In this document: positions 52,992-60,222 of the stretch, in pieces
Layout: every line of letters begins with the position of its first letter
Position numbering within the stretch: position 1 is the first letter of the stretch
From: Acholeplasma sp.
Lineage (GTDB): Bacteria; Bacillota_I; Bacilli_A; Acholeplasmatales; UBA5453
NCBI GenBank assembly: GCA_012839355.1
Contig: DUNK01000013.1
Coordinates: 1-64,000 of the forward strand
Direction of reading: 5' to 3'
DNA: 64,000 nucleotides
The notes under the pieces: generated by a model
The model's database searches: none
Seen by the model: the letters and a program-made list of their open reading frames with translations, nothing else
What the model was told of the DNA's origin: nothing
Position numbers and translations under genes: made by a program

Positions 52992-54338
52992 TTATAAAAA
53001 TATAGTCATATATACAGGCAAATAAATAATGTTATTTTTTATAGTTAAATCTTTTGTGTGAATTAAATATTTGTTGCCTAATTTATTATTAAATTTGTTA
53101 GTAAATTTATTTAATGAAGAAATAGTGTAGTTTTTACCAGATTTCACTTCAATTGGAGAAATTTTAGCAGGGTTTTTAAAATCTCTTATTAAAAAATCAA
53201 TTTCCATTGTGTTTTGACTTGATTTTTTATCATATCTAGAATAAAAGTATAATTTTTTGCCTTTTGCTACTAACATTTGTGCAACTATATTTTCAAAAAT
53301 CATACCATTGTTAATTGATAGTTTATCTGTTATTATTTTCTTAGAAATTTCTGCTGACATTTCGCTTTCTTCATCAAAAGCGTGACTTAATAATAAACCA
53401 GTATCGCCCATATACATTTTTAAGGTTAATCTATCTTTGTATAGAGATAAGCCTACATTAGGATCTGTTGCATTATAACACGGGTTGGTTATCATTGCTT
53501 TGTTAAGCCACATGAAAGCATCTTCATAATCTCTAAAACGAGCAGATTTTTCAATTGAGTTAAGAGTAAATTTTTTCTCGTGTTTAGAAAGTTGACTAGG
53601 AATTTCATCAAAGATACTTAAAACTTTATGCTCATAGCCATTTGCATATTTAGCAATATCATTTCGGTAAAGCGTCAAAATATCTCGTTTAATTCTATCA
53701 ACATTGTTATAGTCGTTGGTATTAATATATTCTAAAACTGCTTGTGGCATTCCGCCTATCAATATATATGTTCTAAATAGTTTCATTATTGTTGAGTGTA
53801 GTTCTTTTAATGGTTTTAATTCATTAAAATGTTTTTTTATTATAGCGAACAACTCTTCTTTTTCTAAAGCCCAACAAAATTCTTCAAAATCAAGTGGGTA
53901 CATTTTTATGGTTCTTTCTTCAGATGGAATTAGTATATCTTTTACATTTCTTTTTAAACCTAATAGAGAACCAGTTTGAATATAATCATAGCGATTATCG
54001 TAAACTAAATGTTTAATTAGTTGCCTTGCTTCAGGAAACAGCTGAACTTCATCAAAAATAATTAAAGAATCTCTTTCATATAATGTTACACCACTTATTG
54101 CTGACAATAAAAAGAAAAACTCATCTAAGTTAGATGCGTATTTATTAAATAGTGATTTAATTTCATCGCTTGCAATACTAAAATCAATAAGTATAAACGA
54201 TTTATACTCGTTTTTTGCAAATTCTTTAACGACTGTTGTTTTTCCAACGCGTCTAGCACCTTCAATTAATAGCGCGGATTTACCATTTTCTTTTTTCCAA
54301 TTAACTAAAGTATCATAAATTTTCCTTTTTAGAAGCAT
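52992..54338 (-). CDS. AAA ATPase of the AAA_14/DUF4143 type
   Basis: IEGARRVGKTTVV, LIIFDEVQLFPEA, C-terminal IDFLIRD...PIEVKSGK nuclease-like region. Confidence 0.88.
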   Translation of the reverse strand: MLLKRKIYDTLVNWKKENGKSALLIEGARRVGKTTVVKEFAKNEYKSFILIDFSIASDEIKSLFNKYASNLDEFFFLLSAISGVTLYERDSLIIFDEVQLFPEARQLIKHLVYDNRYDYIQTGSLLGLKRNVKDILIPSEERTIKMYPLDFEEFCWALEKEELFAIIKKHFNELKPLKELHSTIMKLFRTYILIGGMPQAVLEYINTNDYNNVDRIKRDILTLYRNDIAKYANGYEHKVLSIFDEIPSQLSKHEKKFTLNSIEKSARFRDYEDAFMWLNKAMITNPCYNATDPNVGLSLYKDRLTLKMYMGDTGLLLSHAFDEESEMSAEISKKIITDKLSINNGMIFENIVAQMLVAKGKKLYFYSRYDKKSSQNTMEIDFLIRDFKNPAKISPIEVKSGKNYTISSLNKFTNKFNNKLGNKYLIHTKDLTIKNNIIYLPVYMTIFL

Positions 54339-56343: not shown

Positions 56344-57630
56344 TTATTCTTGAATTTGTGTTAGAGCGCCGATGAAGATAGGTAGATTCGTTTCATTATC
56401 AAGTATCATATATACGAAAGGCCTATCTAACTTAACATAATGACATAACGGATCAATGCTTGTAGTCTCTACTCCAATGCCTGTGACAGCGGCAGCTTTA
56501 GTGCCTTCTTCATCAACTTCAATAAATGTTTTGTGTAAAACTGTGCCGATGTGGAGATTATTACCTACAAGTTCTGCCATATTCTTAAAGTTTGCTGATA
56601 AAGGATTAAATGCTGTTGGCATACCCATATCTGTTAGCATTTTATTCATTGTTATTGAGTAATCATAACTAAATTTAGGAATAGCAGCATAGACCATTGC
56701 ATCTTCTACATTGTTTAAAATGTTAGATAGTGATTCAGTAGTTAGTGAATTAATAAAATCATAAATATCTACATCCATGTTAGGAAGAAGTGCTGCAAAA
56801 CTATATTTATTATCTTTGTAAGGTTTAATGAAGCCTTGAGCAGTAGGACAAGATAAATATTTTAATTCTCGAGAATTCATCATTTCAACGGCTTGTCGTA
56901 TGTTAAGGATATTAGTAAATTCATCATCAGATATTTGATTACTAGTATACTTTTCTTCCCACTTAGAATTAAATACTAACGCATTAATTAAATAAAGCAT
57001 AGCGTCAGGAGAAATGGAGTCTAATATTTTTTCGATCATTCCATCTGTGTTTTTATTAACCCACTTATTAATATCTTTTAAAGTAGTATCGTTAAACGGT
57101 GATTTATATAGTTCGGCATTATAATAGTTCACTGTGGTTTGCAGGAATGTTGGTTTTACATAAAGTCCATTCATTTCACGATACCAAATAGAATTGGCGA
57201 TTTTGAGTTTGTATTGGTCGCTTGACGGTAGTGAGTTAACATAAGCGTAAAGATACTCATTTAAGTCTTCGATTGTAATTCCACCACCTAATAATGCTTC
57301 CATTTCCGTTTTTGTTTGTCCATCAGCACCATTAGCAGTCATTGATAACGCAAGAAGAATTGATAGAGGTGAGATTAAGACGTTCTCTTTTTCTTCTACG
57401 CTTTCATTAACGCTCGCTTTAAACAACTTTAATGCTAAATCTAATTGAGCATCAATGAAAATTTGATCAGCTGCTTTACCAGCTACTTTTTGAGAGGTAA
57501 CTCCATCTAAGAGATTTTCTGCTTGGATAGTTATGTTTGAAACAGGTTTACAACTTGTTAGAGTAAAGATAACTCCTAACACCAGTAAAAATATAGTAAT
57601 TATTTGAAATTTCTTTTTCATATTTTTCAA
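56344..57630 (-). CDS. serpin-family lipoprotein
   Basis: Lipobox LTSC; NVLISPLSILLALSMTANGADGQT; KTFIEVDEEGTKAAAVTG hinge; DRPFVYMILDNETNLPIFIG. Confidence 0.94.
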   Translation of the reverse strand: MKNMKKKFQIITIFLLVLGVIFTLTSCKPVSNITIQAENLLDGVTSQKVAGKAADQIFIDAQLDLALKLFKASVNESVEEKENVLISPLSILLALSMTANGADGQTKTEMEALLGGGITIEDLNEYLYAYVNSLPSSDQYKLKIANSIWYREMNGLYVKPTFLQTTVNYYNAELYKSPFNDTTLKDINKWVNKNTDGMIEKILDSISPDAMLYLINALVFNSKWEEKYTSNQISDDEFTNILNIRQAVEMMNSRELKYLSCPTAQGFIKPYKDNKYSFAALLPNMDVDIYDFINSLTTESLSNILNNVEDAMVYAAIPKFSYDYSITMNKMLTDMGMPTAFNPLSANFKNMAELVGNNLHIGTVLHKTFIEVDEEGTKAAAVTGIGVETTSIDPLCHYVKLDRPFVYMILDNETNLPIFIGALTQIQE

Positions 57631-57695: not shown

Positions 57696-58869
57696 TTATT
57701 CTTCTGAAACAACAAAACTATACTCTAAAACTTCACCTGTAGCTAGCGTTTTATTTCCGCTTCTAACATATATTTCTTGGCCTGTATAAAGTAAAATTAC
57801 AGGATTTGTTTCAGCAAGCGATACTTCAATAGTATAAGTGTTTCCTGCTTCTGTTTCAGTAACATCGTTTCCTTCAGCATCTTTAATACTTAAGATAGTT
57901 ACTGAAAAATCAGCACCATATAAGTAAACTTGTGCAGCACCACCAATAGTTAATTGAGCAGGTGCATCTTCAGGTACATTTATAGTTGCTGCAAAGTTAT
58001 TTGAAAGATCAAATTCATTTTTTATATACATGAAACGGAAATTTTCCATTTGTTCTTTTGTAACGCCGCTAAATAAAGCATCAACAGTTTCACCTTTATT
58101 TGCTTGTGTAACAGTTAAGTTGTTTACTATTAGTCCAATTGGAGTTACTTCAATGTCTTCTTTGTGGTTATAGAGCATATCATCTACATGTAAAGTTCCT
58201 AGAAGAACTTTCATCACAACAACTACTCCACGACCAGAGATAAAGAAAGTATCTATTTCTTGAAGTAATAGTTTTTCTTCATAAACAGCAGTTAATGTAA
58301 GTGCTTCTTCAATTACGTAAGTCATACTATCAAAAGTTTCACCCGCTAATTGCCATTCAGCAAATTTCATTTTATCATCTAATAATTCAGGCCCAGCAAG
58401 TTCTCCGATTGTTGTACCATAACTAATAGAAAGTGGTGCAAGTGGAGCGCCAATTTCGCCAACATCAAGTGTTACAGCGATCTTTTCAGGTTCAAAAGTT
58501 ACTTCAATAGTTAAGCCAACAACTACTGTAATAGTTAATTTATTATCAACTAAAGCAGCCTTTCTTTTGAATTAATTAATAAAGAGGCTAATTCTTTATG
58601 TTCAGGAACTGTAACTAGTAATTCTATTTCTGTATTAGCTTCTAAGTCTGCAGGGTCTAATGTAGCATCTGTTAAACTTATGCCTTCAGGTAATTCTACA
58701 CTTACTCTTGCGTTTTCGTATACTACTTCAATAACCATATCTTCAGCAACTGTGATAGTAATCTTATTGTCAACTAAATCAGTCTTTCTTTTTCATCACC
58801 ACAAGCAGCCATTAGCAGAAGAGTTAATGAACTCATTATAACTAATGCTAATTTAAAAATCCTTTTCAC
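57696..58869 (-). pseudogene. repeat-containing lipoprotein interrupted by two -1 frame changes (ORFs 57696-58370 and 58550-58738 are parts)
   Basis: GTG 58869 reads VKRIFKLALVIMSSLTLLLMAACGDEKERLI*; continuation in other frames as LVDNKITITVAEDMVIEVVYENARV... and LVDNKLTITVVVGLTIEVTFEPEK... Confidence 0.7.
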
Positions 58870-59013: not shown

Positions 59014-60222
59014 TTAATTCTCGTCTCCCATTAGCCACCTAGCTAAATCGAATATTTTTACACCATCTTTTATTGTCATTGGGTATGTTGTATTTGCTAA
59101 GATGATTTTAGGATAGGCATCTTTTATAGAAATTAGAGGGGCAAGTTCTCTTTTTAGTGTTTCCTCTCTACTTATATTATCTGATACTTGAATATAGATT
59201 TTTTCACTACCTTTAAGTGCTATAAAATCTATTTCTTTTTCATAAAGTTTGCCAACATATACATCATATCCACGTCTTAATAATTCGATTGCTACTATAT
59301 TTTCATAAGCTCTTCCGTAATCCATATTTCTAACCCCTAACATAGAATAACGGAAAGATAAATCAGATAAATAATACTTGTCGTTTATTTCTAAATGTTT
59401 TTTCCCTCTAATATCGTATCTTTTTACTTTATAAAACATAAAAGCATTGCATAAATATTTGATGTAATTTCCAATAGTTACATGATTTGTTTTAATTTTT
59501 TTGTTATTAAATATGTTAGATATATTATTAGCAGTTGTAAGATTGGATATGTTATCCATTAAAAATTTTGTTAGTGTATCTAATAGTGAAATATCTTCAA
59601 TATTATATCTATCAACCAAATCTCTTTTAATTAAAGATGTATACACATTTTTTATATATGCATTAGAATCTTCTTCGTTTTCATATAGATATGAACCTGC
59701 TAATCCTCCCGCTTTTAAGTAATTTTCTAAATGATTAGAAAAATTATCCTTTATATCAAAATATTCTAAGTATTCCTTAAATGAAAAAGGGAAAATCGGA
59801 ATTTCTATAAATCTTCCGGTAAATAACGTAGACAAATCTGAACTTAATAAAAAAGCGTTAGATCCGGTCAAGTAAATATCATATTTTTTACTATTATGAA
59901 GACTATTAACAGCAATCTCAAATTTATGACAAAGTTGCACTTCGTCAATCATCAAAACATTTTTTGTATTAGGCTTGTAATTGTTTTCGACATATGAATA
60001 TAAACTTTTGTAATCTTTTATATCATCATATTTTAAATTACCATAATCAATTTCTATTAAATTTGTTTCTGGTTCAGTTTCTTTAATGTGTTTTAAATAC
60101 GCCCTCATAAGCTCAGACTTACCAGATCTTCTAATACCAGTTATAATTTTAATATCTGGAGTATTTCTAACTCTTTTAATTCTATCTAGATATAAAGTTC
60201 TTTCGATAAGCTTCATAACCAT
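59014..60222 (-). CDS. AAA ATPase of the AAA_14/DUF4143 type (second copy)
   Basis: ITGIRRSGKSELMRAY, VLMIDEVQLC, C-terminal EKEIDFIALKGSEKIYIQVSD; start may be 60216. Confidence 0.88.
   Translation of the reverse strand: MVMKLIERTLYLDRIKRVRNTPDIKIITGIRRSGKSELMRAYLKHIKETEPETNLIEIDYGNLKYDDIKDYKSLYSYVENNYKPNTKNVLMIDEVQLCHKFEIAVNSLHNSKKYDIYLTGSNAFLLSSDLSTLFTGRFIEIPIFPFSFKEYLEYFDIKDNFSNHLENYLKAGGLAGSYLYENEEDSNAYIKNVYTSLIKRDLVDRYNIEDISLLDTLTKFLMDNISNLTTANNISNIFNNKKIKTNHVTIGNYIKYLCNAFMFYKVKRYDIRGKKHLEINDKYYLSDLSFRYSMLGVRNMDYGRAYENIVAIELLRRGYDVYVGKLYEKEIDFIALKGSEKIYIQVSDNISREETLKRELAPLISIKDAYPKIILANTTYPMTIKDGVKIFDLARWLMGDEN

Follow-up and report, generated by a model that had tools for sequence, protein, structure and literature searches.

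A probably decaying lipoprotein gene of Acholeplasma sp. with frame changes at two homologous repeat linkers and a C-terminal module resembling EF-Tu domains II and III

Is a lipoprotein gene that changes its reading frame twice, at the same point of two homologous repeats, recoded, switchable, wrongly read or broken? The question was raised by the minus strand of the window, the stretch of 64,000 nucleotides of Acholeplasma sp. DNA that was analysed. A lipoprotein leader with a lipobox opens at GTG 58869; this start, its coordinates and its frames had been given in the preliminary description and were confirmed by reading the sequence and its frames. The GGAGG ribosome-binding site, read directly from the sequence, lies shortly upstream, and a signal peptide with a lipobox ending in Cys (MKRIFKLALVIMSSLTLLLMAAC), recognised by reading and not with a signal-peptide predictor, places the product among bacterial lipoproteins. 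The zero frame from GTG 58869 reads MKRIFKLALVIMSSLTLLLMAACGDEKERLI-stop, that is, 31 codons followed by TAG 58776-58774. The first -1 frame (LVDNKITITV...) is open past this stop and runs to KERLL-stop at TAG 58552-58550, which is preceded by the same AAAAGAAAGRCTGMTTTAG motif as the first stop, and the second -1 frame (LVDNKLTITV...) is open for 291 codons up to TAA 57698-57696. The earlier claim that in both repeats the zero frame ends at KERL(I/L)-stop, with LVDNK(I/L)TITV going on in the -1 frame, was borne out. Apart from the two frame changes, no further stop was found in about 370 codons.

Table 1. Coordinates of the lipoprotein gene, its parts, its neighbour and related modules
Feature	Position	Strand	Basis or remark
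Lipoprotein signal peptide, lipobox LMAAC, zero-frame start	58771..58869	-	sequence; zero-frame stop TAG 58776-58774
Frame-change site 1, AAAAAGAAAGACTGATTTAGTTGA; also joint of leader and half repeat unit	58770..58793	-	relatives carry full unit here
Repeat unit 1, -1 frame, LVDNKITITV...ELASLLINSKERLL, divergent InlB-type	58553..58777	-	relative's repeats match PF18998
Frame-change site 2, AAAGAAAGGCTGCTTTAGTTGA	58546..58567	-	ranked first of the ab initio frame switches in 658 kb
Repeat unit 2 start, second -1 frame, LVDNKLTITVVVGLTIEVTFEPEK	58482..58553	-	sequence comparison
Listeria-Bacteroides (Flg_new) repeat-like region, DVGEIGAPLAPLSISYGTTIGEL...FAEWQLAG...TLTAVYEE	58281..58481	-	resemblance judged by eye
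EF-Tu domain II-like module	58017..58280	-	intact homolog above Pfam cut-off
EF-Tu domain III-like module	57723..58001	-	intact homologs above Pfam cut-off
Serpin, intact, own lipoprotein signal; neighbour gene, downstream	56344..57621	-	PF00079 E=5.7e-88
EF-Tu II-III-like modules lacking a GTPase domain, within lipoproteins that carry repeats; at least four genomes of the order	window 57723-58280 (-); L070:6744-9596 (-); L071:6576-10235 (-); L072:5538-8873 (+); L137		

Both sites share the pattern AAAAGAAAG-R-CTG-M-TTTAGTTGA-Y-AATAA, with 27 of 30 bases identical. The two copies had been described as homologous and ~84% identical; the homology stands, and the identity has to be replaced by about 90% over this core, falling to 24 of the next 39 bases. 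In the 964-kb genome searched, the exact shared motif occurs at two places only, both in this gene; a third copy, with 3 mismatches, lies at C15:37174. Homology between the sites begins exactly at the A-run, site 1 being preceded by the signal-peptide leader and site 2 by the final part of a repeat unit; since it starts there, with the leader upstream, site 1 is a joint between leader and repeat as well. The distance from motif to motif is 224 bases, which is not a multiple of three. The A-runs at the sites are A5/A4 and A3, the longest run in the gene is 6, and the longest exact word common to both sites measures ~10 bases.

Both -1 frames are truly coding. Out-of-frame stops occur in the neighbouring intact genes at 0.129 per codon, one every 7.7 codons; at this frequency the chance of 70 open codons is P = 6e-5 and that of 285 open codons P = 7e-18, so that the openness is not fortuitous. 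A codon model derived from 294 long ORFs gave the -1 frames scores of 0.52 and 0.49 per codon, against 0.26 for the serpin and 0.28 for the AAA-ATPase next to the gene. An ab initio scan of 658 kb of the genome ranked site 2 first of nine frame switches, and the coding signal there begins well before the first downstream start codon. The same scan picked up two IS3-type orfA/orfB pairs in -1 overlap (L084 7729 and 13706, G000:C15), which are expected natural frameshift genes and serve as a useful positive control; the remaining switches include the two broken-looking genes described at the end and apparent ordinary gene boundaries.

The repeat unit is of the divergent InlB type, and a relative in genome G005 matches PF18998 (Pfam). 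Lipoproteins with divergent InlB B-repeats (Flg_new_2, PF18998) in G001, G005 and G042 likewise start with a lipobox leader, have a repeat length of 72-79 codons and share the motif pattern LPEG...TEV.LTV.VPEGKEL..L.VNG...NNKYTF at about 22-43% identity. In eight related genes from the same-genus genome G001 and from G005, 27 units were counted, none with a broken frame; the unit spacing was mostly 72-79 codons, with about double gaps in one gene. Among the relatives the linker length differed by 1-2 residues, so that a comparison of loop lengths did not distinguish the loss of one base from the gain of two. In the leader-bearing relatives, including all four G001 genes seen, the lipobox is soon followed by a full unit. 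Unlike the lipoproteins of G001, G005 and G042, the gene described here has one and a half units, with the leader on the half unit and the frame lost at two linkers; only the last ~27 residues of a repeat unit follow its leader. At least four such genes are present in G001, and one copy was found in this genome. A scan of the relatives' contigs returned no ortholog of the lipoprotein.

The C-terminal ~185-190 residues appear, by alignment, to be homologous to EF-Tu domains II and III, the GTPase domain being absent. Residues 31-216 of the C-terminal 224 align with both domains in order, and comparison with EF-Tu (PF03144, PF03143) gave about 22-29% identity over ~185 residues. Pfam matches of the window protein had E = 0.004 for EF-Tu domain III, 0.016 for EF-G domain 2 and 0.03 for EF-Tu domain 2, below the cut-offs when the protein is taken alone (17.9 vs 27; 15.1 vs 30.3), and the best match to solved EF-Tu chains had E = 0.001. 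The module found a match in 129 of the 160 genomes of the order, mostly the EF-Tu gene as judged by length and sequence. Its best match (E = 9e-14) was not EF-Tu; it was a 951-residue lipoprotein of G147 with InlB-type repeats, in which both EF-Tu domains score above their Pfam cut-offs (49.7 and 47.4 bits). A single-sequence structure model, with pLDDT 37, was too poor for a comparison of folds.

Intact lipoproteins of G147 (951 and 1220 aa), G137 (1024 aa) and G057 (1112 aa) likewise consist of a repeat array followed by EF-Tu II-III; their repeats are List_Bact, and signal and lipobox were seen in the G147 and G057 proteins. They differ from the window protein in their intact frames, in their greater length and in belonging to a different family of the same order. 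By eye, positions 58281..58481 of the window seem to resemble the Listeria-Bacteroides (Flg_new) repeat, and Flg_new matches precede the EF-Tu module in the homologs (Pfam). Pfam gave no GTPase domain match in the C-terminal 224 aa, upstream of which lie leader and repeats, and none in the homologous lipoproteins scanned, a set that did not include the G137 protein.

EF-Tu is among the best-known proteins found on the bacterial exterior without any secretion signal. Parts of its domains I-III bind fibronectin in Mycoplasma pneumoniae (PMC5593925). Unlike EF-Tu, the module described here lacks the GTPase domain I, is strongly diverged and belongs to a secreted lipoprotein. We propose that such surface-displayed EF-Tu II-III modules may perhaps be a dedicated version of the moonlighting of EF-Tu in mycoplasmas (PMC5593925). 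Related bacteria carry EF-Tu II-III in proteins that bring a lipoprotein signal of their own; these would amount to a dedicated surface form of the moonlighting part, whose function outside the cell would be directly testable. In open-access papers we found no description of EF-Tu II-III lipoproteins.

Among the explanations to be weighed, an error of consensus or assembly, by which the population would be intact and the draft wrong at both homologous linkers, is unlikely. The genome is a draft of 41 contigs and 85.9% completeness, and the remaining frames are perfectly open with a strong coding signal, as expected of an intact gene; however, about 62,000 residues aligned by homology to the same-genus G001 contained no true frameshift and no other convincing one in this genome, and therefore a generally bad assembly is unlikely (the 3 hits that the comparison gave in this genome were set aside as antisense shadows of a ribosomal-protein operon or low-complexity matches). 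The runs involved are short (3-5 A), and the window contains 16 copies of AAAGAAAAG that read normally. Loss of the motif by sequencing bias was likewise considered and rejected, AAAGAAAAG being present at 3.8 times its expectation in the window and not depleted. The spread of contig sizes suggests an assembly from short reads, for which the shared word of ~10 bases is probably too short to be confusing. The systematic sequencing error offered as one explanation in the preliminary description is thus improbable in the light of the 16 normal readings, of the homology comparison and of the probable short-read assembly. Reversible on/off switching of a surface lipoprotein by short changes of A-tracts, caught in the off state, would suit an apparently wall-less lineage, and both changes do lie in A-rich stretches with intact frames downstream. 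We nevertheless regard it as quite improbable: neither site has a run of 7 or more bases, the length taken as a mark of phase variation (PMC3711429), or a long simple repeat, and expression would require both of the gene's switches to be on at the same time. The suggested A-tract phase variation accordingly found no support, the runs of A5/A4 and A3 being below that length.

That each linker undergoes programmed -1 ribosomal frameshifting or transcript slippage, yielding full protein at a low level, is very improbable, even though both sites have, like those of the IS3 family, A_AAA followed by G in the correct phase, ordinary -1 frameshifting is probably at work in the two IS3-type transposase pairs of this genome, and a gene recoded for a long time would be consistent with the 3 differences between the patches and with the open frames. 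Unlike IS3-family sites, the gene has no X_XXY_YYZ heptamer at either site and no strong stimulator, and it is not a transposase; the sites offer no more than A_AAA, and re-pairing of the codon that follows is not possible. Among the tetramers prone to shifting in E. coli, A_AA.A ranks lowest; such tetramers depend on a strong stimulator, and with the IS3 pseudoknot their shift frequencies ranged from 0.26% to 5.6% (PMC4066793). Two A_AA.A shifters in series would therefore have a vanishing yield. Folding at site 1 gave z about 0 or above and at site 2 was weak (z about -1.7); inspection by eye of the 6-17 nt upstream of either site found no SD-like stimulator of the kinds given in PMC4066793. 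Moreover, intact neighbours with 3,298 codons in all contain 14 in-frame instances of A_AAA_GAA, no run is long enough for polymerase slippage, and the eight homologous genes show no frame change in their 27 units. Of the recoding at A-AAA-G that had been put forward, the phase of the tetramer holds at both sites; recoding itself is poorly supported, given the lack of a stimulator at site 1 and the 14 in-frame contexts nearby. It is highly improbable that the lipoprotein is functional with an undescribed heptamer-less -1 recoding signal at each linker, which would produce a ladder of lengths ending in a surface EF-Tu II-III. Separate genes, the downstream parts of which would be started by re-initiation or translational coupling, are scarcely credible. 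Downstream start codons do exist (ATG 58738 and ATG 58370), but their distances from the preceding stops are about 36 and 180 bases, and starts there would split repeat domains mid-way without a secretion signal. At site 2, moreover, the coding signal sets in well ahead of the first start codon that follows this site; no ribosome-binding site was noticed by eye before ATG 58738.

A real but broken lipoprotein gene, its frame lost at two A-rich linkers between repeats, is the probable explanation. It agrees with the coding character of both -1 frames by openness and codon score, with the lack of recoding signals, with the 224-base spacing as against 27 relatives' units that are all in frame, and with the half unit behind the leader where leader-bearing relatives have a full one. 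The single copy, compared with at least four in G001, fits a loss of the family in this genome, and other broken genes (secreted phosphoesterase-like and nucleotidyltransferase-like) are present there. Against it stands the absence of a further stop in about 370 codons, which would require the decay to be recent, whereas copying old enough for 3 differences in a 30-base patch would be expected to have left more damage. Independent hits at homologous linkers would be roughly a 1-in-64 coincidence (65 A/T runs of at least 3), and no orthologous gene was found in the relatives examined.

The frames and stops, the motif common to both sites, the homologies of the repeats and of the EF-Tu module, and the half unit were all observed; from them we infer the status of a pseudogene, in which the frame loss removes most of a conserved protein, and the following order and mechanism of events. 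The ancestral product would have been a lipid-anchored surface protein composed of a signal peptide, divergent InlB-type beta repeats and a C-terminal EF-Tu II/III module. Both frame losses probably had one cause, with short-homology recombination or slippage taking place at the linker (AAAAGAAAG...). Site 1 probably marks the joint left by a recombination or deletion, because the relatives have a full unit where this gene has a half; about half a repeat would have been removed behind the leader in an internal deletion. Site 2 may have arisen by copying of the linker between repeats or by a second hit. Among the four options originally offered, gene conversion, or else mutation of the shared linker, is the best. 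As the sequence stands, translation would give a leader peptide of 31 residues, and the remainder would not be made as a lipoprotein. The double frame change is most likely ordinary decay in a small genome, and it is worth recording lest it be mistaken for recoding. The relatives at the level of the order include many genomes of 0.5-0.9 Mb; together with the use of UGA as a stop codon in this genome, this suggests Acholeplasmatales.

Two further genes of the genome appear damaged: a secreted metallophosphoesterase-like gene, apparently broken, in which the frame changes close to a T6 run (L081 about 3915; G000:C13:23915), and a nucleotidyltransferase gene, AbiEii-like by eye, with several stops and a frame change (L083 about 13213; G000:C13:73213). 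Of 40 relatives searched, G005 and G015 alone have close orthologs of the serpin, with 58-61% identity, and neither of the two has the lipoprotein beside it; this distribution suggests gain or patchy loss of the serpin. Two AAA_14/DUF4143 ATPase genes (52992-54338 and 59014-60222, minus strand) flank the lipoprotein-serpin region, and the one at 52992-54338 is 80% identical to a gene beside the serpin in G005.
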